Source of the DNA: Bacteroidales bacterium CF
GTDB taxonomy: Bacteria; Bacteroidota; Bacteroidia; Bacteroidales; UBA932
DNA: 64,000 nucleotides
Direction of reading: 5' to 3'
NCBI GenBank assembly: GCA_000473305.1
Contig: CP006772.1
Coordinates: 2,301,805-2,365,804, forward strand
The translations under genes were made by a program, and so were the position numbers. The notes beneath the pieces are model-generated. The model did no database searches. It saw only the letters and a list, made by a program, of their open reading frames with translations, and had not been told where the DNA came from. Of the stretch, positions 1 to 7,445 are shown piece after piece; position 1 is the first letter of the stretch; each line of letters starts with the position of its first letter.

Positions 1-393
1 ATTTTCTCCATTTTTGTGATTCTGGATTTTTGTTGCTTGGGAATAAGTGTCATATTTAATGAATTTATCCCAGACATTTTGCCAGTCTTTCTCGTTTTTT
101 AAAAGATATAATGCAGAACAATAAGTTCCTGCAATGTGTGGATTAAAATTGATATCACATTCAATATTAGTATTTCTTTCTGCTAAATCTTGAAAACGTC
201 CTGGAGTTTCGTCTTTTCCAACATCCATTCCTACAAATAGAATTTTATTTTTAGACAAGTTATATTTGCTTCCAATGAAGGGCATTGTTACAAATTTAAT
301 TTCTGGGTAACTGCTTAATATTCCAGTTGCCGGATTAATACCAAATTCTTTAAAAAAATTTTGATATTCAATTTCAATTTGGTCTTTATTCAT
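1..393 (-). CDS. Hypothetical protein, 3' end cut by window edge (cassette 6)
   Basis: Reading from an ATG at 391-393 towards position 1 gives 131 open codons that run off the window, so only the N-terminal part is visible. It begins MNKDQIEIEYQKFFKEFG and contains the stretch ILFVGMDVGKDETPGRF near residue 50 and NPHIAGTYCSALYLL near residue 90. I do not recognise the family with confidence. No signal peptide or membrane segment is visible, so it is probably cytoplasmic. The gene sits directly behind a cassette junction (GTTA core at 434-437, minus strand) with a 40-base leader, in the same orientation as the other cassette genes, so I take it as the cargo of the most distal cassette visible. 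The site that closes this cassette must lie outside the window. Confidence 0.6.
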   Translation of the reverse strand, partial: MNKDQIEIEYQNFFKEFGINPATGILSSYPEIKFVTMPFIGSKYNLSKNKILFVGMDVGKDETPGRFQDLAERNTNIECDINFNPHIAGTYCSALYLLKNEKDWQNVWDKFIKYDTYSQATKIQNHKNGEN

Positions 394-433
394 AGTAGTT
401 GTCTTAAATTGTGCGTTTTTTTAGCATTACCGC

Positions 434-487
434 TAACGATTCGGCGGCTGAGCCCGTTTTAATGGGCGTAGACGCCTGTTATGGGTC
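434..487 (-). repeat. attC-like cassette junction 5/6
   Basis: Short palindromic site on the minus strand: upstream core GACCCATAAC (478-487), then a stem of GGCG..GCCC pairing with CGGGC..CGCC, and downstream core starting GTTAGCGG (437 downwards). The 74 bases 440-513 are identical to 4440-4513, the equivalent site of the duplicate cassette. The upstream core is complementary to the start of cassette 5 (GTTAATGGGTC at 684 downwards) apart from one extra A. Confidence 0.65.
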
Positions 488-684
488 GGTTGCGCTATTG
501 GCTGGTTGTTTTATTTATTTTCCGTCAACTTCTATATCATTAACTCTCTCTAAAACACTCATTAACTCGGCTGCCTCTCTTTGTCTACAAATGACCGGTC
601 CTTTTTGCTCTTAGACAGACACTTTACATTCTGATCTTGCTCTTTTTCTTTTGCCGTATTGGTTCCCGTAACTGACCCATTAAC
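438..684 (-). mobile_element. Gene-less 247-bp cassette (cassette 5), duplicate of 4438-4684
   Basis: The interval between two GTTA cores is 247 bases, exactly the length of the first cassette at 4438-4684, and by eye over 90 percent identical to it. No convincing gene is present. An 18-codon frame from the ATG overlapping the core (MGQLREPIRQKKKSKIRM, minus strand) is kept in both copies. A second frame ending REAAELMSVLERVNDIEV looks like the decayed C-terminus of a protein; it is disrupted in the other copy. The differences between the copies do not favour synonymous positions in any frame, so I call it non-coding or a gene remnant. In classical integrons gene-less cassettes sometimes carry promoters or small RNAs; I see no clear promoter here. 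Confidence 0.65.
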
Positions 685-809
685 GGTGGCGGTATGAAAC
701 GTTGCCGATTGCGGGCGATTTCCTGTCAAGTTACGCAAAACTTAAAGCGGGATACAACCCTTGATTAACCTGCTACCCCGGCAATTTTTTATACCGCGTG
801 TTATGTGGC
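681..809 (-). repeat. attC-like cassette junction 4/5
   Basis: Long imperfect palindrome after the 286-aa gene. On the minus strand it starts with core GCCACATAAC (800-809), followed by an arm GCGGTATAAAAAATTGCC, an internal loop, the opposite arm reading GGCAACGTTTCATACCGCC, and the next core GTTAATGGG (684 downwards). The upstream core is complementary to the start of its own cassette (GTTATGTGGC at 1707 downwards), not to the downstream core. Confidence 0.7.
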
Positions 810-814
810 GTTTT

Positions 815-1675
815 TTATATTATTTTCCACCATTTCTTATCTTTTGTAATCTCCTTAATCAAAAGTTTTTTGTCTGGTTTCTTATTTGTCAATTCGTGTT
901 CAAATTGTCTGTCAATATCTTCAATAATATTAATCCAATCGCCTGAATACATTACTTTAAAGTCATACATCTCGTTAACTTTATAAGCCTTATCAACCTT
1001 TATGTTACCGACTATTTCAAATAAGTCAATATACTCCTTTTTAAAGTACTTTGGTAAATACCATGAGACCCTTTCATAGTTGTCCCACTTAGCATAATTT
1101 ACAATCAAAACATCTGCTTTTTCAAAATCATTCAGGTTAGGTTTCTCCTTTTGATTTATTCGTGTAGAGGCAACTAAATTGTAACCATATTTACTTTCAA
1201 AATCTGAACCTATCACCAATGCGCCGCCAAAATTGCCATTCTTTAATTTGAAAGTCAAACAATCACCCGTTTTAAATATCGGGTCTTTTGCTTTAATCTT
1301 TTTGGGAAGTCTCGCTTTCTCCTTCTCTGTCTGAATTGTAACAAGAAACTTATCAAGTACATCTTTTCTTTTCTTAATGTCTTTCTTGTCTGCACCAAGT
1401 TCTTCCCAAACTTTTAAATCTTTACCTGACTCAATAATCTCTTTGACTTTCTTATAAACTTTTTCATCAAGCGATTTAGTCTCCCATTGAGCAAGTGCTA
1501 AGGCAAACCAAAAGTTATTGCAGTCTTGTGGATTGTCAAGAACTTCTTGATAGTCGGCAAATAATTTTTTTGATATTTCTTCAGGACTTTTTCCATCATT
1601 ATATGAATCAAAAAAATCCAAGTAAATATCACTCGATGCGTCATTTCCTTTTATGCTAGTATTCCATGTACCCAT
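815..1675 (-). CDS. Hypothetical protein, DUF4259-like N-terminus (cassette 4 cargo)
   Basis: A 286-aa soluble protein without signal peptide. The opening MGTWNTSIKGNDASSD and the following stretch with NNFWFALALAQWETK resemble the MGTWG..END.A.D start of DUF4259-type proteins, which often occur as mobile cargo; this is a resemblance seen by eye, not a search result. Residues 90-130 are rich in Lys and Glu and probably helical; the C-terminal half contains a KAKDPIFKTGDCLTFKLKNG segment that looks like a small beta barrel. It is the only gene of a 1,023-bp cassette bounded by GTTA cores at 1704-1707 and 681-684. The leader from core to ATG is about 30 bases and the stop lies just before the 3' site, the compact layout typical of gene cassettes. 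Function unknown. Confidence 0.75.
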   Translation of the reverse strand: MGTWNTSIKGNDASSDIYLDFFDSYNDGKSPEEISKKLFADYQEVLDNPQDCNNFWFALALAQWETKSLDEKVYKKVKEIIESGKDLKVWEELGADKKDIKKRKDVLDKFLVTIQTEKEKARLPKKIKAKDPIFKTGDCLTFKLKNGNFGGALVIGSDFESKYGYNLVASTRINQKEKPNLNDFEKADVLIVNYAKWDNYERVSWYLPKYFKKEYIDLFEIVGNIKVDKAYKVNEMYDFKVMYSGDWINIIEDIDRQFEHELTNKKPDKKLLIKEITKDKKWWKII

Positions 1676-1703
1676 TGGTTCTGCTGTCTTTTAAAATGCC
1701 ACA

Positions 1704-1836
1704 TAACGGACGAGTGTATGTGCAGTAAGGTATTGCGGGGCAGTTTCCTGTCCAACGACACGAAAGTTTGAGCGGGCTACAATGCTTGAAAACCCACTAA
1801 ACCCCTTATGGCATATACACTTTGTTATGTGCAGTA
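1704..1836 (-). repeat. attC-like cassette junction 3/4
   Basis: Imperfect palindrome of about 130 bp. On the minus strand: upstream core TACTGCACATAAC (1824-1836), arm GTGTATATGCCATAAGG, loop, arm CCTTACTGCACATACAC, downstream core GTTATGTGGC (1707 downwards). The upstream end is complementary in 14 of 15 positions to the start of its own cassette at 2463, whereas the two cores within the site agree only over about eight bases. Confidence 0.7.
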
Positions 1837-1839
1837 AAT

Positions 1840-2421
1840 TTATCCATTCATTACGGTGTCTGCTCGAATAATTCTTATTTCTGGATTTATTTTTTCAATA
1901 AGTTCTCTAATCAATCCAATGTCAGAATTACTCATAGCACGTCCCAATATAATTTCTTCAACTTGAACTTCTATGTAATGTCTATCTTGAACAAAAACTC
2001 TCTCTTCTTCTTCATAATTCCATACTTCAAGTTTGTGGCTCAATATTTCAATAGCTGTCTGGTCGTTAAAGTTTTGGTTACGAATAGAAACAAGACCGTT
2101 GTATTGAATTGGTCTAACAGTGTATTGAGTGTCGTCAATTCTGAGGCCAATTGCAACTCCACGTTGTCCATTTGTATAGTGAGACCACATAAGTTCATTG
2201 TTGTTTACACGAGATAAAGAACAAAGTCGTAGTTCTCCCTTTTCTTCGGCAAGTCTGTCCCGAATATTTCGGTCAAGTTCACCTGTCCTGTAATAATATT
2301 GTCCTTCCATTGGGTCATTAAGGTCTTTATACTTTGCGGCATAAAGTCTGTTTTTGAGAATAATGTCAATGAAGTTTTTAAAGTTGTCTAAGCTCCTGTA
2401 TTTGTATAAAATGTTTGTCAT
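1840..2421 (-). CDS. DUF2971 domain protein (cassette 3 cargo)
   Basis: A 193-aa cytoplasmic protein. It begins MTNILYKYRSLDNFKNFID and has LNDPMEGQ near residue 36 and LCSLSRVNNNELMWSHYTNG around residues 67-87, the characteristic conserved blocks of DUF2971 (KYRS, LNDP.E, CSLS..N..LMWSHY). The biochemical role of that family is not established; members are frequent in mobile and defence-associated contexts. The gene fills a 756-bp cassette (2463 to 1708), with a leader of about 40 bases after the GTTA core and a stop three bases from the 3' palindromic site. All cassette genes share its strand. No promoter of the Bacteroidota type is visible inside the leader, so expression may depend on read-through from upstream. 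Confidence 0.85.
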   Translation of the reverse strand: MTNILYKYRSLDNFKNFIDIILKNRLYAAKYKDLNDPMEGQYYYRTGELDRNIRDRLAEEKGELRLCSLSRVNNNELMWSHYTNGQRGVAIGLRIDDTQYTVRPIQYNGLVSIRNQNFNDQTAIEILSHKLEVWNYEEEERVFVQDRHYIEVQVEEIILGRAMSNSDIGLIRELIEKINPEIRIIRADTVMNG

Positions 2422-2459
2422 TGTTTAATCGTTACAGTGTAGTTCAATTTTATTGCACA

Positions 2460-2593
2460 TAACGTTGCGCATATGATTTGTTGGGGAGGTTCGGAGCACT
2501 TATCTTTCATGGTACACATAAACTTGAATAAAAGCAATGCCTTTGCATTTAGCTCTTCAACCCCAATAAATTATATGCGGTGTTAGCAAACGG
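2460..2593 (-). repeat. attC-like cassette junction 2/3
   Basis: Palindromic site of about 134 bp. Minus strand: upstream core GTTTGCTAAC (2582-2591 region), arm GCATATAATTTATTGGGG, a central loop of some 50 bases, arm CCCCAACAAATCATATGC, downstream core GTTATGTGC (2463 downwards). The upstream core is complementary to the beginning of its own cassette (GTTAGCAAAC at 4058 downwards) and not to the downstream core beyond GTTA. Confidence 0.7.
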
Positions 2594-2595
2594 TT

Positions 2596-4029
2596 TTAAT
2601 TATTATTCCACCAAAAGTCATAATTCACTCCATTCACGGGTATTGTAACCTGAACTTTATCAGCACTTTTATATTTTATATTTATTTGTCCAACTATCCT
2701 TTGCTCATTATCAATTGTATTTAGCTTTAAATACCCTTGATTCAAGACATTTCTAATTTGATACTGTTGATTTTGATAATCATTAATGTTTTGTTGAGCC
2801 TTTTGATGAGCTGCATAATTTGCTGCACCATCATAAGATTGCGTATTACTACGAGTAGTTGCTGAGCCATAAGTACTACTACTACCTGATACACTACCAT
2901 AAGTATTTCCGTAATAACCAGATACACTCCCATAACTGTTAGAATAACCTGATGTAGTTGATGTAGTTGATGACGATGAATAACCTGCTTGGTTTGCAGC
3001 GCTAGATTCTCCAAATGCAACCAATGCAGCATTCCATGCTTGTCTATTATTCACTTTTTTCATATATTCATTTGCAGATAGAACTTCTCCAGAAGTTTTA
3101 GTTCCGCTTTTTATCAATATTGCGGTAATAGTTGAGGGGTCAAAATTAAACGATTTTCCTGTCAAATTTTCAATAGCAACATAAGCAACGTAATATTTAC
3201 CATAGGTTCTTTCAATAGACAAATGCATAGTTACAGATATTCCATTATGAACGTAGTATTGGAAAGCCTTGCCGTCTTTATAATAAGTTTTACTAAGTTT
3301 ATCTACATCTGTTTCAGAAAGGATTTCACCAGTTTTTGAATAAGTGTATACAATTCCTTTCCATTTAGAATTTTTATCATCATATCTATCAATATATAAT
3401 GCCTCACCTTTACCTTGTAACTCTCCTGTTATATAATAATCTTTAACTAAACCTGAAATATTGCCATTACTATCTAAATTTATTATTCTATAAAAAGCGG
3501 CAGCTCCTCTTGTTTTAACACCTTTCCATTTACTATCAAAATACAAAGTATCAGAAGTTTTCGAACTAGAAATTATTTTTTCTGGTTTAGTATTAGAATT
3601 ATTTGAATTACTAATATCAACTCCGTAAAAATTCCATGTACCAGAAATACCTTCGATTAAATCAAATTTCGTAATCGATTTAGGTAAAGGTTCAAAAATA
3701 GCTGAGAAAACTACGTGTTTATTCGGGTACGCAATAGTTACAGCATCCTTATTTGCAATCCCTTCTGTACTAAGCAAGAGAAATTTTATTCCATTGGCTT
3801 GAATATAATAAGCACCATCAGAATTTGGTGGACTTAAATAAATATAAATTCCCTCAGATTCAGTCCTAGTATATTCAAACTCTATAATAGTGCTGGATGA
3901 GTTTCTTTCGACTTTTTTAATTTTTAGGTTTTTTTCGCTCTGGCTATTAATATTTGGATAATAAGTTTGAGCATTGATAAATTGTGACATTGAAAAATAA
4001 ATCACAAAAAAAACAATCATTTTATTCAT
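2596..4029 (-). CDS. Secreted hypothetical protein with Ser/Tyr/Gly-rich segment (cassette 2 cargo)
   Basis: A 477-aa protein starting with a signal peptide (MNKMIVFFVIYFSMSQFINA, then QTYYPN), so it is probably exported to the periplasm or outer membrane. Residues 150-270 contain repeated short G-x-x-x-Y-Y motifs of the kind seen in toxin-antidote or MORN-type repeats (for example YYITGELQGKGEALY). A low-complexity stretch at about residues 350-400 is built of Ser, Tyr, Gly and Thr (SNSYGSVSGYYGNTYGSVSG). The final part ends in a small beta-rich segment. I do not know the function. It is the largest cassette cargo in the array (cassette 4058 to 2464). The ATG follows the GTTA core by about 30 bases. 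A signal-peptide protein as cassette cargo is common in integrons. Confidence 0.75.
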   Translation of the reverse strand: MNKMIVFFVIYFSMSQFINAQTYYPNINSQSEKNLKIKKVERNSSSTIIEFEYTRTESEGIYIYLSPPNSDGAYYIQANGIKFLLLSTEGIANKDAVTIAYPNKHVVFSAIFEPLPKSITKFDLIEGISGTWNFYGVDISNSNNSNTKPEKIISSSKTSDTLYFDSKWKGVKTRGAAAFYRIINLDSNGNISGLVKDYYITGELQGKGEALYIDRYDDKNSKWKGIVYTYSKTGEILSETDVDKLSKTYYKDGKAFQYYVHNGISVTMHLSIERTYGKYYVAYVAIENLTGKSFNFDPSTITAILIKSGTKTSGEVLSANEYMKKVNNRQAWNAALVAFGESSAANQAGYSSSSTTSTTSGYSNSYGSVSGYYGNTYGSVSGSSSTYGSATTRSNTQSYDGAANYAAHQKAQQNINDYQNQQYQIRNVLNQGYLKLNTIDNEQRIVGQINIKYKSADKVQVTIPVNGVNYDFWWNNN

Positions 4030-4054
4030 AGTTTTTATTTTTTAAACTGTTTGC

Positions 4055-4145
4055 TAACGGACCGCGGGTATAGTACGGCCACCCTGTCCTCTTGCAAACC
4101 CATTGCCTCCGGTGGCTGAACTATACCTGGTGTTATAACCAGCTG
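4055..4145 (-). repeat. attC-like cassette junction 1/2
   Basis: Compact palindromic site of 91 bp. Minus strand: CAGCTGGTTATAAC (4132-4145), arm GGTATAGTTCAGCCACC, loop, arm GGTGGCCGTACTATACC, downstream core GTTAGCAAACAG (4058 downwards). The arms pair almost completely, with a short bulge, as in the stem of a folded attC. The upstream core is complementary to the start of its own cassette (GTTATAACCA at 4437 downwards). Confidence 0.75.
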
Positions 4146-4437
4146 CGATTTCAGTACAAGATCAAATCGCCTTTGGCTCATGGTTTTGCCTCATAAAGAT
4201 AAAAACTTTATTTTTTAATTCAATCACAGATTATCCTAAATATCAACGAACAAACCCAATATTTACACTAAGGGTTAAATCAAATCTGCATTGGATTGCA
4301 AAACCTGTGACAAAGGCGCGGTAATATTATTGAAATTAGAAAAGAGACTTCGAAACTTAAATACACCCTCTTAAAGCAAAAATCAGATAATCGGCACACA
4401 TTTCAGCCTTTACAACTTTTCTTTAGTTGGTTATAAC
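4059..4437 (-). mobile_element. Gene-less 379-bp cassette (cassette 1)
   Basis: Interval between GTTA cores at 4434-4437 and 4055-4058. On the minus strand only very short frames are present (14 codons from an ATG near 4400; a few others), none with a recognisable product, so I see no gene. It is A+T rich between its ends. It has the same terminal architecture as the gene-bearing cassettes: its first ten bases GTTATAACCA are complementary to the bases before its 3' site. Confidence 0.6.
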
Positions 4438-4487
4438 GTTTCGGCGGCTGAGCCCGTTTTAATGGGCGTAGACGCCTGTTATGGGTC
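4434..4487 (-). repeat. attC-like cassette junction 0/1
   Basis: Short site: minus strand GACCCATAAC (4478-4487), GGCG..GCCC/CGGGC..CGCC stem, then core GTTATAACC (4437 downwards). Bases 4440-4513 are identical to 440-513, so the 3' end of this cassette is the best conserved part of the duplicated unit. Confidence 0.65.
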
Positions 4488-4684
4488 GGTTGCGCTATTG
4501 GCTGGTTGTTCTATTTATTTTCTTTAACTTCTATATCATTAACTCTCTCTAAAAATACTCATCAACTCGGCTGCCTTTCTTCTTATGCAAATGACCGGTA
4601 CTTTTTGCTCTTAGACAGATACTTTATATTCTGATCTTCTCTCTTTTCTTCTGCCGTATTGGTTCCCGCAACTGACCCATTAAC
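4438..4684 (-). mobile_element. First, gene-less 247-bp cassette (cassette 0) next to the recombinase
   Basis: Occupies the position next to the recombinase gene, where the newest cassette would be in an integron. It matches 438-684 over its full length with about twenty differences, concentrated in its middle. It keeps an 18-codon frame (MGQLREPIRQKKREKIRI) that starts within the core, but has no recognisable gene. Its recurrence four cassettes further on means that the same element was inserted twice or the intervening block was gained between two copies. Confidence 0.65.
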
Positions 4685-4841
4685 TTGTTTATGTATTCAT
4701 CAAAGTGGAATCAGGGAGGGGGAGCAAAGGGGGCTTGGAACGGGTTTGTTGAATAATATAAATTCAGTCGGCTGGTGGTTGTATTGTTAATTTATTTAAT
4801 TTTTATGTAGTCTAATTCTTATGTTTATTATGAGGTTTAAC
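4681..4841 (-). other. Candidate attI-like integration site and leader behind the recombinase gene
   Basis: About 157 bases separate the recombinase stop codon from the first GTTA core (TAAC at 4681-4684 on the plus strand). This stretch has no gene and no pairing partner for the core, as in an attI site, which carries only one simple half. Minus-strand sequence at the junction reads ATACATAAACAAGTTAATGG. I see no clear TTG/TAnnTTTG promoter in it. Confidence 0.45.
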
Positions 4842-5693
4842 TCATAAATCAAAGTCGTCGGTTGGGTTTTTGATCTTCTGGAGGCCGGTCATGCTAACCC
4901 ATGTGTAAATTTCGGTTGTCTTGCTGCTTTTATGCCCTAACAACTCCTGAATGTACCTCAAACTTACTCCCGCCTCTAACAGATGTGTGGCATAACTGTG
5001 TCGCAGACAATGCAGTGTAAAATTATGATTTTTAATTATTTTACCCAAATATTTATGAAAAATATTCTCTATGCTTGTTTCGCTGTATTGTTCTCCCGGA
5101 GATTGGCCCTCGATGAGATAAATTTTAGGTCTGTACATTTTGTAATATCTAATGATCATATCCATAAGCTTGTCGCTCAGTGGCAACACCCTGTCTTTCT
5201 GGCCTTTTCCATTAATAACAGTCAATGTCTTGCGCTTGGAATCTAAATCCATGAGTTTCAGGTTTAGTATTTCACTCCGTCGTAAACCACAGGCATATAC
5301 AAGGGTGAGAGCTGTCTTGTGTTTGAAGTTGGGTATTGAGACAAGCATTTTCTCAACTACTTGCTTAGAGATGACTTTCGGAAGCGGACGGTATTTTCTG
5401 GGTCTTTCAATCTCTTCAATTGACAGTTGTCTTTTCTCAACCTTTTGATAATAGAGCTTAATGGCATTTATTACCTGATTTTGGTAAGAGGCTGAATAGC
5501 CGTGCCTAAGGATGTAGTTCTTATTAAATAATACTAAATCTGAATTTGTAATATCTCCCGGATTTTTATCTGCAAAATAATTAAGGAATACATTTATTGC
5601 ATTTAAATACACTTCAATTGTCCGGGTGCTGTATCTGCAACCCTTGAGCCATGCCTCAAAAAAGGCTACATCTTTTCTGTTCGTTCTCTCCAT
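4842..5693 (-). CDS. Tyrosine recombinase of the cassette array (XerC/D-like, integron-integrase-like context)
   Basis: A 283-aa tyrosine recombinase from the ATG at 5691-5693; an upstream TTG at 5708 would add five residues. It has an N-terminal SAM-like DNA-binding domain (about 1-100) and a catalytic domain with the full set of residues: Arg138 in ACGLRRSEIL, Lys in NGKGQKDRVLPL, His228 and Arg231 in HCLRHSY, His254 in LLGHKSSKTTEIYTW and Tyr263 as nucleophile. The C-terminus (LQKIKNPTDDFDL) resembles the short tail of integron integrases and of the large Bacteroidota recombinase group with RPKxYL.EGQ (here RPKIYLIEGQ). Between the catalytic Lys and the HxxR box there are only about 55 residues; IntI1 has some 45 more, including its diagnostic extra helix, which is missing here. 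The gene is transcribed towards and on the same strand as the cassettes. I infer that it excises and inserts them. Confidence 0.9.
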   Translation of the reverse strand: MERTNRKDVAFFEAWLKGCRYSTRTIEVYLNAINVFLNYFADKNPGDITNSDLVLFNKNYILRHGYSASYQNQVINAIKLYYQKVEKRQLSIEEIERPRKYRPLPKVISKQVVEKMLVSIPNFKHKTALTLVYACGLRRSEILNLKLMDLDSKRKTLTVINGKGQKDRVLPLSDKLMDMIIRYYKMYRPKIYLIEGQSPGEQYSETSIENIFHKYLGKIIKNHNFTLHCLRHSYATHLLEAGVSLRYIQELLGHKSSKTTEIYTWVSMTGLQKIKNPTDDFDL

Positions 5694-5744
5694 ATCTCTC
5701 TCCTCCAATTTTTTATAAAATTATAAAAAAAATCAGAAAGGCTG

Positions 5745-5757
5745 TCGCATTATGCGA
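5745..5757. repeat. 13-bp palindrome between fic and the recombinase gene
   Basis: TCGCAT-T-ATGCGA lies in the 87-bp gap between the Fic stop codon and the recombinase start. On the minus strand it could form a small hairpin with a T-rich tract some 15 bases later, or be an operator in front of the recombinase. I cannot decide between the two. Confidence 0.3.
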
Positions 5758-5780
5758 TATCCTTATAAAAAGTGGTTCTG

Positions 5781-6860
5781 TTATCTTCGTGCCAGTAATT
5801 CAAATAGCTTCTCATTTACATAGTAATTCCCGGTTCCGATTCTCTCTTTTCTCAGTAATCCGTCTTCTGCCAGTTTGTTCAAATAATTTGCGGCAGTTAT
5901 TCTGGAGACAGTCAAGTCATTTACGATAAATTCTATTTTTGTGTATGGATGTTTGAAAAGGTTATTCAACAAATCCTGGCTATAGAATTTGTAATTGTCT
6001 CTCAGTTTGTATTTATACTCTGACATCAATTCTCTTATTTGATAAATCAGGTTTATCGTCTCTCTTGAAGTTATTTCTATGCCCCGGATTATGAATAATA
6101 TCCATTCCTCCCAATTCTCATCATCTCTAACTTGCTGCAAACAACGATAATAATCTGTTTTATTGTGGATTATGTAATTGCTCAAGTATAAAATAGGCAA
6201 ATTTTGTAAGCCCTCAAGAATCAGATACAAGATGTTGATTATTCTACCGGTCCTGCCATTTCCGTCATAAAAAGGGTGGATACTTTCAAACTGAAAATGG
6301 ATTATTGCCAATTTTACAAGAGGATCATAATCACACATTGATTTATCATTGATGAAATTTTCCAGATTTGTCATCAATCTTTTTATTTCATCAATGTTTT
6401 GAGGAGGGGTATAGACTACTTCTCCCGTTGTTGAGTTTTTCAGAGATGTTCCGGGTAATTTCCTGAAACCGGCATTATTCCTTTCCAGTTCTTCCTGAAT
6501 CTTTATTACAATGTTGCTTGTTATCAGTTTCTTGCTTTTTACTAACTCAAACCCCTTTTTTAAAGCTGAAACATAATTTTGGACCTCTTTTGCTTCCAGA
6601 GATTTGAAAGAGTCAAAATTTAATTCGGTCTTATACAAATCATCGTGAGTTGTAATAATGTTCTCTATGGCAGAACTATCTTTTGCCTCTTGTAATCCTA
6701 GTGTATTGACCAAAATTATCTGATTTGGGATTGTTGACGCAACTCCTTTTAATTCAGCCAATGCTGCATGGGCAGATGGTAAACTCTTTAATATGGTCTT
6801 ACTTTCAACATCTATTGAGAGTGGAAGTTCCTTTAATCTCCAATTACTTTCACTGGTCAT
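5781..6860 (-). CDS. Fic family protein (AMPylase-type) with N-terminal inhibitory motif and C-terminal winged helix
   Basis: A 359-aa protein. The catalytic Fic motif HPFYDGNGRTGR sits at residues 195-206, with the conserved His and the GNGR phosphate-binding loop intact, which predicts nucleotide transfer (usually AMP from ATP) onto a hydroxyl of a target protein. An SSAIEN sequence at residues 62-67 fits the (S/T)xxxE(G/N) inhibitory helix, here N-terminal to the Fic core (class II Fic), so activity is probably kept in check in cis. The last 60 residues (IEFIVNDLTVSRITAANYL) look like a winged helix-turn-helix, typical of this Fic subgroup. Two copies of TTTCTTTACAAAG lie upstream (about 6880 and 6920) and a -7-like TATCTTTG at 6888-6895, minus strand, suggests a promoter with possible self-control. 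It lies between the recombinase and tRNA-Met. Confidence 0.9.
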   Translation of the reverse strand: MTSESNWRLKELPLSIDVESKTILKSLPSAHAALAELKGVASTIPNQIILVNTLGLQEAKDSSAIENIITTHDDLYKTELNFDSFKSLEAKEVQNYVSALKKGFELVKSKKLITSNIVIKIQEELERNNAGFRKLPGTSLKNSTTGEVVYTPPQNIDEIKRLMTNLENFINDKSMCDYDPLVKLAIIHFQFESIHPFYDGNGRTGRIINILYLILEGLQNLPILYLSNYIIHNKTDYYRCLQQVRDDENWEEWILFIIRGIEITSRETINLIYQIRELMSEYKYKLRDNYKFYSQDLLNNLFKHPYTKIEFIVNDLTVSRITAANYLNKLAEDGLLRKERIGTGNYYVNEKLFELLARR

Positions 6861-7237
6861 TATGTAAAGATTTTTCGGTTTTCTTTACAAAGATAGTTTA
6901 TTATGTATAAAAAAATTATTTTTCTTTACAAAGTTTGAGGTATGTATTTGACTTTAAGCATTTCTAAAAATGAGTTTTTTCGACTTGAAAGATGTCGAAT
7001 TTCAAGTAATTGACAATGTGGTAGATACCTCAAACTGCGCCAAAGTCCCTTCTCTGCGCGGTGCAGGATTACGTCGCTGCGCTCCGTGATCCTGGAACGG
7101 TCGGCAAAACAGCCCGAGAGAGGAGAACCCCAGGGCTTCGCCCCGTGGTTTTTTTGTTTTTGTCCGATTCAGAGCAAGCTCTGATCGGAGCAAAACAAAA
7201 AACCCCTTGCCGTTTGGCAAGGGGTTCTCCTTTCTCG
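6861..7237. other. Gene-less 377-bp spacer, G+C-rich hairpin region in its right half
   Basis: 6861-7010 is A+T rich and carries the fic promoter region. From about 7030 to 7230 the sequence is much richer in G+C than its surroundings and consists of several inverted repeats (for example TCAGAGCaaGCTCTGA near 7170 and GGGCTTCGCCC near 7132). An open frame crosses it and the tRNA, which I do not believe to be a gene. Confidence 0.5.
7193..7227 (-). terminator. Rho-independent terminator behind tRNA-Met
   Basis: On the minus strand AACCCCTTGCC-AAAC-GGCAAGGGGTT forms a perfect 11-bp stem immediately followed by TTTTTTGTTTT. It begins about ten bases past the tRNA 3' end and would end its transcript. 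Confidence 0.85.
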
Positions 7238-7311
7238 TAGCGCGACCCAGGATTGAACTGGGGACCTCATGATTATGAATCATGCGCTCTAACCAGCTGA
7301 GCTATCGCGCC
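7238..7311 (-). tRNA. tRNA-Met (anticodon CAT)
   Basis: A 74-nt tRNA on the minus strand. The acceptor stem pairs GGCGCGA with TCGCGCT (one G-U pair), the D arm is AGCTCAGCTGGTTAGAGC, the anticodon stem CATGA/TCATG encloses the loop TTCATAA with anticodon CAT, and the T arm carries GTTCAAT. CCA is not encoded. The first pair is G-U, not an initiator-type mismatch, so it is the elongator tRNA-Met; a lysidine-modified tRNA-Ile cannot be ruled out from sequence alone. It has its own promoter and terminator. Its 3' end faces the accessory region at 1-6860. Confidence 0.95.
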
Positions 7312-7324
7312 GGGAATTGAGGTG

Positions 7325-7354
7325 CAAAAGTAATATAAAATTGTGATGTTGCAA
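7325..7354 (-). promoter_or_regulatory. Bacteroidota-type promoter of tRNA-Met
   Basis: On the minus strand TTG (7352-7354), 19 bases, TACTTTTG (7325-7332): a full match to the TTG / TAnnTTTG consensus, ending 13 bases before the tRNA 5' end. Confidence 0.8.
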
Positions 7355-7445
7355 ATAGTTTTTCGGGAAAAACATTCTATACATTTATACCGGGGTTTTG
7401 AGATTTTTTGCTTAACTTTAGAAATCAACCAAATCATTTTGCGTG

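Follow-up and report, generated by a model that had tools for sequence, protein, structure and literature searches.

An integron-like cassette array in Bacteroidales bacterium CF with a recombinase of a clade separate from IntI

In classical integrons the integrase gene intI usually lies divergent from its array, and the attC sites share the core consensus RYYYAAC / GTTRRRY; Xer recombinases act at dif on chromosome dimers. Classical cassettes mostly pair with themselves over 9-11 nt, and extrahelical bases of the bottom strand direct the choice of strand, according to the accessible text of one study (PMC2727003); an additional domain near patch III is named as a feature of integron integrases in sections of another (PMC9668308). 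Integrons have been reported from Bacteroidota, as excerpts of two papers state (PMC8618304, PMC9668308), and the accessible pages on IntegronFinder 2.0 give a single complete integron in Bacteroidetes proper (Salinibacter ruber), besides those of Chlorobi and Ignavibacteriae (PMC9024848). The layout of the rAID (recombinase-associated acquired interbacterial defence) arrays of gut Bacteroidales includes "conserved intergenic sequence motifs"; in the available portion of that paper the route by which two homologous genes were acquired is called not yet clear, and the term "integron" is not used (PMC12247911).

Here we describe a cassette array beside a tyrosine recombinase gene in Bacteroidales bacterium CF, whose genome is a single contig of 2.66 Mb. 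The window, a stretch of 64,000 nt (G000:C1:2301805-2365804), holds one end of the array, which is read on the minus strand; positions below are those of the window unless the genome is named. With considerable confidence we read the locus as an integron-like cassette array, whose recombinase belongs to a clade apart from that of IntI and probably integrates cassette circles into an attI-like site immediately past its own stop codon.

The recombinase of 283 amino acids (aa) contains the Pfam domains Phage_integrase and Phage_int_SAM_4, and its top NCBIfam model is XerA, at 192.3 bits (cut-off 220). It does not pass the IntI model integrase_gron (166.9 bits, cut-off 265), and a search of the whole genome with that model returned no gene above the cut-off. 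In the region of the IntI-specific insert, 45 residues lie between the aligned blocks of the recombinase versus 87 in IntI4; a first-pass annotation, made from the sequence alone, had put the enzyme at about 45 residues shorter than IntI, and the shortening holds, at 42 residues in this alignment. No insert was found in that region among 14 aligned relatives, and the median aligned length is 280 for the recombinase family versus 318 for 20 IntI sequences. On the tree, a clade of 47 family rows (98/96) stands apart from one of 20 IntI rows of the same phylum (100/99); the former was delimited after a quick tree had been inspected, and its bootstrap had not settled. Eleven of the 58 family rows fall outside this core clade, including G072 (41% identity) and G040 (37%), beside which no attI-like end was seen by eye. 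One relative titled Azoarcus (L095) is likely a mis-binned contig.

The cassettes share a layout of a GTTR start, usually one open reading frame (ORF) in the direction of the array, a YAAC end and an inner palindrome before the next GTTR. We searched for such sites in 103 arrays: 80 named loci (the top 80 among no fewer than 560 relatives), 18 of 20 further regions, the genomes G000 (that of the window), G010 and G015, and two plasmids; other fetched relatives, for example G022, G021, G012, G014 and G001, stand apart from this set. Array counts are slightly inflated because at least two records are duplicate loci (L110/L244 and L065/L227 are one locus twice each); distinct cassettes in the pairing analysis were counted once, by their arms. 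A first scan for GTTA/TAAC alone missed GTTG-type sites and was superseded by the pattern GTTR/YAAC, so that positions 1-3 are fixed and the R at position 4 is partly imposed. Since sites were detected from cores and inner stems only, the outer arms provide an independent test, scored over ten positions (5-10 and 12-15); position 11 entered no selection.

Across 142 distinct cassettes of 120-3,000 bp, the two arms of one cassette match at 7.27 of 10 positions versus 3.44 with shuffled partners (200 shuffles, standard deviation 0.13, maximum 3.77), and the two arms that meet within one site match at 3.56 of 10. In the 100 cassettes that reach at least 7 of 10, positions 5-9 are paired in 92-100, position 10 in 72 and positions 12-14 in 89-95, a pairing that the selection itself favours; three or four pair types occur at each of positions 5-9 and 12-14, beyond single cases. 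Position 11 of the 5' arm is A in 100/100, Watson-Crick paired in none and opposite C in 89, an A-C mismatch that becomes a G-T wobble on the complementary strand. When one inserted base is allowed, 106 of the 142 cassettes pass and all 106 have A11; only 9 of the 106 begin with GTTRRRY. The core NNNTAAC/GTTANNN originally proposed fits the GTTA sites of the window, and relatives have GTTG starts as well. As to the other original proposal, cassette-wise rather than site-wise pairing, the pattern itself stands; it is not new, because most classical cassettes also self-pair over 9-11 nt (PMC2727003, in its accessible text).

Folding was simulated with DNA parameters for 117 arm-verified cassettes, repeats included. 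For 111 of them the prediction gives the bottom strand of the circle form a more stable fold than its top strand, and for 114 it ranks the circle form above the form within the array.

An attI-like region adjoins the recombinase in most relatives. Among 76 arrays of at least 700 nt, a first cassette was found by its own arms no more than 260 nt beyond the recombinase stop in 62 (two of them duplicate loci), at an attI-like end with the consensus TATAWRNDA|GTTR. The A before GTT is present in 62/62, as are A and T at -8 and -7, and these first cassettes have A at position 11 in 62/62. By its position and sequence this end would be the insertion point that an integron carries next to its recombinase. 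Because it and the first cassette lie beyond the stop codon, the recombinase reads towards its own array. In the window, about 160 nt of attI-like DNA separate the recombinase from the junction GTT and terminate in CATAAACAA. In four relatives of one genus (G001, G014, G015 and G019; L041, L040, L029 and L038) the recombinase matches are shortened or interrupted, and the attI-like end and the start of the first cassette are kept.

The intervals vary as units between genomes, with exact ends; the first-pass annotation would have been contradicted by strains in which they never do. Two species of one genus (G012 and G014) have in common a cassette 98% identical and bounded by the attI GTT and the next GTT, and their sole other aligned stretch, around an upstream tRNA, is 80% identical. 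In two Chryseobacterium plasmids the stretch with the recombinase and attI is 95.8% identical, and the sequences diverge from the first base past GTT, where the first cassettes differ. A 1,443-bp unit is common to L069 and Flavobacterium denitrificans (L098) at 94.3% identity; in one of them it begins at the GTT that follows another site, in the other at attI. A stretch of 1,253 bp that contains the MFS cassette of the window's own genome is found again, at 91.8%, in G104, which lies outside its class, and it starts at GTT in both. In total, of 95 shared segments 33 start and 46 end no more than 6 nt from a GTTR, and 19 do both (background 0.108 per end); these segments are not independent, because 41 fall within the genome of the window.

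Sites are enriched downstream of the recombinase throughout the relatives, in line with the original suggestion that the clade would have neighbouring arrays in Bacteroidota: the 80 named relatives yield 137 sites over 307 kb on the downstream side against 27 over 686 kb on the upstream side, and where 1 kb or more of downstream sequence is available, 42 of 50 loci have a site there. Of 392 genomes sampled from the phylum, 62 carry the recombinase (E <= 1e-58), namely its own, 31 of the same class and 30 beyond; the weaker of these, near 40% identity, may belong to neighbouring groups. IntI exceeds its cut-off in 107 of the 392, one of them in the same class (Bacteroidia). Both enzymes are present in 12 genomes, for example G196, G382, G255 and G392. 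In 30 of the 80 loci (L064-L143) the contig breaks off no more than 1 kb past the recombinase on the downstream side, and in three on the upstream side, as repeat arrays would cause, and such breakage of assemblies could be one reason why the arrays were overlooked. Among the open-licence PMC papers listed, none was seen to describe this system.

The longest ORF of the 117 arm-verified cassettes is sense in 99 and antisense in 10, and 8 have no ORF of at least 50 aa; the median length is 188 aa and the median start 42 nt past GTT. The inner palindrome mostly measures 116-121 nt, and lengths of 110-112, 72-73, 40 or at least 160 nt also occur. Ten cassette proteins, chosen by hand from the 109 with an ORF, comprise an Mrr restriction enzyme, an ADP-ribosylglycohydrolase, an MFS transporter, a RES protein, a DUF4279 protein, a weak uracil-DNA-glycosylase match and four proteins that match nothing.

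All six GTTA-core palindromic sites that had first been noticed behind the recombinase were located in the window, each of the form TAAC - palindrome - GTTA on the minus strand, between 434 and 4481. They set apart three full genes, a fourth that the window edge truncates and three segments with no gene (Table 1). The cassette starts proved complementary to their own 3' arms as had been claimed, at 12, 14, 14, 14 and 14 of 16 positions (starts 4437, 4058, 2463, 1707 and 437). The first cassette, A, matches at 7/16 ungapped, and by eye its arms pair with one inserted base. The two arms within one site agree little beyond the core, again as noted at the outset: the mean over 23 intervals, ungapped and with compound intervals included, is 2.6 of 11 versus 7.1 of 11 for own arms. 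When each site is folded as DNA as it stands, the bottom strand is predicted to be the more stable in 5 of 6, the exception being the site after cassette D. No immunity domain was found in cassettes C-E with Pfam and NCBIfam, and unmatched proteins could still be immunity proteins. A known RNA element was considered as an explanation and rejected: an Rfam scan of window 1-7400 (E <= 1) offered only a tRNA and one hit below the gathering score at the same place. Directly upstream of the recombinase, at 5781-6860, lies a Fic-domain gene (SoFic-like, 372.5 bits; the equivalog cut-off of 550 was not reached).

Table 1. Features of the recombinase and cassette array in the window
Feature	Position	Strand	Details
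Tyrosine recombinase, proposed cassette integrase	4842..5693	minus	283 aa from ATG; TTG start at 5708 possible
attI-like region	4684..4841	minus	conserved end ATAAACAA at 4685-4692; junction GTT from 4684
Cassette A, gene-less, first after attI	4478..4684	minus	207 bp; start GTTAATGGGTCAGTTG, own 3' arm CAACCGACCCATAAC
attC-like site after cassette A	4434..4481	minus	inner 40 nt; DNA fold bottom -12.0, top -7.4 kcal/mol
Cassette B, gene-less, repeated in array	4132..4437	minus	306 bp; own arms 12/16
attC-like site after cassette B	4055..4135	minus	inner 73 nt; bottom -16.1, top -14.5 kcal/mol
Cassette C	2582..4058	minus	ORF 2596-4029 (477 aa; no Pfam/NCBIfam match); own arms 14/16
attC-like site after cassette C	2460..2585	minus	inner 118 nt; bottom -22.6, top -19.2 kcal/mol
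Cassette D	1824..2463	minus	ORF 1840-2421 (193 aa; weak DUF2971, just below Pfam cut-off); own arms 14/16
attC-like site after cassette D	1704..1827	minus	inner 116 nt; bottom -23.0, top -25.0 kcal/mol
Cassette E	800..1707	minus	ORF 815-1675 (286 aa; no match); own arms 14/16
attC-like site after cassette E	681..803	minus	inner 115 nt; bottom -20.2, top -16.1 kcal/mol
Cassette F, second copy of gene-less cassette A	478..684	minus	
attC-like site after cassette F	434..481	minus	inner 40 nt; bottom -13.1, top -9.0 kcal/mol
Cassette G, cut by window edge	1..437	minus	ORF 1-393, 231 aa in whole genome; own arms 14/16

Beyond the left window edge the array extends for about 39 kb, at least as far as 2,262,861 in the genome. 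A scan of 60 kb of the array strand gave 26 hits, of which 2 outside the pattern were removed by hand; this leaves 24 sites in the 43 kb of the array versus 0 on either strand of a control stretch, window 8001-64000 (2 x 56 kb), at the same threshold. The opposite strand of the array scores too (17 hits), as palindromes must. Copies of a gene-less 250-bp repeat were traced left to 2,271,085, and the gene-less cassettes of 207 and 306 bp have many copies, often adjacent (window 434-684 and 4434-4684; G000:C1:2271085-2306504). A second tyrosine recombinase (L002) lies within the array on the opposite strand, at G000:C1:2274615-2275229, and groups with L042 and L043; mobile elements of other kinds may have inserted here.

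How the single strand is used, where exactly it is cut and what A11 does we infer as follows. One strand of a cassette circle would be exposed, in all likelihood the bottom one, complementary to the coding strand; on it the cassette's own 5' and 3' arms would pair into a helix, with the inner palindrome making another. What the recombinase would recognise is this fold and not a sequence; the A-C mismatch, which is G-T on the bottom strand, may mark position or polarity. Exchange would occur within GTT against a double-stranded attI, the product would be resolved by replication as in integrons, and excision between neighbouring sites would be the reverse reaction. Since most cassette genes point away from the recombinase, they probably owe their expression to read-through that comes from its side or from attI.

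Three other explanations were weighed. The locus might be an ordinary integron whose IntI has diverged or has lost the extra domain, which we consider improbable and have rejected on the insert, the score cut-off and the tree: the enzyme scores under 265 and no gene of the genome passes, it has 42 residues fewer than IntI4 in the insert region, as likewise seen in the 14 aligned relatives, and it belongs to a separate clade, and 12 genomes possess both enzymes. The system is not a member of the IntI-defined family, since it lacks the insert, stays below the cut-off of the model and departs from the consensus of the cores. A shade less probable is an ordinary Xer-like reaction on double-stranded circles, with the palindromes as terminators or binding sites and no single-strand fold. 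Such a reaction would agree with a recombinase closest to XerA/XerC, and the inner palindromes could indeed terminate transcription; however, the arm sequences vary while their pairing stays, whereas a double-stranded site should conserve sequence instead, and the arm helix has a mismatch at a fixed place. Downstream enrichment across many genera, start and end arms that covary across hundreds to thousands of bases, and exact units common to different genomes make it scarcely credible that interspersed palindromic repeats (REP/MITE-like) stand beside the recombinase by chance with immobile cassettes between them, even though gene-less units recur many times in the genome and some relatives have sites upstream too; layout, covariation and unit sharing led us to reject it.

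The integron-like reading has results weighing against it as well. Among the cassettes between consecutive sites, 42 of 142 fail the 7/10 score, or 36 with one inserted base allowed, a group in which missed sites, insertions and decay may be mixed. The search for a first cassette gave none in 14 of the 76 arrays, and the control for the first-cassette search was positive in 5/44. Sites also turn up upstream in 21 of 77 loci, so the detector picks up some false or unrelated hits. The earlier GTTA-only scan gave no sense site in G022, G021 and six more relatives, mostly represented by short stretches. When only the inner stem is folded (239 sites), the bottom strand is better in 174, the two are equal in 25 and the top is better in 40; the strand preference is a folding prediction, and recombination and circles are what we infer. 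The same pipeline, applied to 20 classical IntI regions of the phylum, detected too few sites for a contrast of A11 with classical attC, so that a lack of A11 in the latter is not established. Our reservation in setting aside a diverged IntI is that the insert is not fully conserved in the integron-like subgroup, though essential for integron function, as the accessible part of Smyshlyaev et al. reports (PMC8138268).

On balance, the anatomy and the comparative evidence strongly support that the array works like an integron, and the first-pass proposal of a distinct, non-IntI cassette-capture system of Bacteroidota gains from the kept layout of recombinase, attI and array, the exact sharing of cassettes, the absent insert and the separate clade. 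It is likely that the Bacteroidota have here an integron type of their own, a second one that seems to have escaped notice until now. We lean, by a modest degree, towards a still wider view, that of a second, separately evolved integron lineage of the phylum with a non-IntI clade and a different single-strand code (a 10-bp helix of free sequence and an invariant A-C mismatch), whose principle recurs in rAID arrays and in a tet(X3) setting, and which is phylum-wide and missed by integron finders. If true, members of the Bacteroidota, including named Flavobacterium and Algoriphagus isolates, would have a comparable but distinct platform for cassette capture, and recombination of folded single strands would proceed without the IntI extra domain, having arisen or been retained in another recombinase clade. 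It would also offer rAID arrays a testable mechanism for gaining immunity genes, and simple sequence marks (the attI end, GTTR and A11) for mining many uncharacterised cassette genes.

Among described systems, rAID arrays are alike in having a tyrosine recombinase upstream of co-oriented short genes with intergenic motifs. A Parabacteroides distasonis plasmid (L155, 5704-12797) carries a rAID-like array with a recombinase 42% identical to ours and with Tdi1 and SMI1/KNR4 immunity genes; its cassette-wise pairing spans 8-11 nt in 6/6 genes versus 3-7 in 30 mismatched comparisons. Judged from this one record, rAID arrays look like a sibling cassette system; they differ in their cargo of orphan immunity genes, shorter sites and the junction ATTA instead of GTTA, and the rAID-like recombinase is a side group in the tree (89/66), outside the supported core clade.

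Plasmid records matching the recombinase number 68, of which 50 are from Acinetobacter. On plasmid pHH1107 (L156, 3139-5200) a 44%-identical recombinase, annotated TnpF, is followed by the cassette-like start GTTATGTGCCATTTTT just before tet(X3), and 3' of that gene is an arm ending in TAAC, whose complement is GTTAGTAGCCGTTTTT; the arms are imperfect. This setting resembles a cassette of the kind described here. Of the other recombinases, two weak relatives far from the array (L003 and L004) are taken for the genome's own putative Xer genes, and the group of L002, L042 and L043, which we take to be IS91-associated, has tyrosine recombinases of similar size, L002 inside the array, and sits elsewhere in the tree, on the IntI side (88/79).

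Classical integrons invite comparison as well. They too have a recombinase-proximal attI, tandem cassettes mostly with a single ORF, a GTT junction, palindromic sites of poorly conserved sequence, self-pairing cassette ends and a predicted stronger fold of the bottom strand. Unlike them, the present system has no IntI insert and a separate enzyme clade, a GTTR core without RRY, a helix broken by the invariant A opposite C at position 11 after an arm of about 10 bp and resumed for 3-4 more pairs, and a recombinase co-directional with its cassettes, with attI beyond its stop; it is present in class Bacteroidia (31 sampled genomes besides its own) versus 1 of the 107 IntI-bearing genomes. What is distinctive relative to the known systems is thus the enzyme clade, the arm of about 10 bp with its invariant A opposite C, the GTTR core and the co-directional recombinase with attI past its stop.

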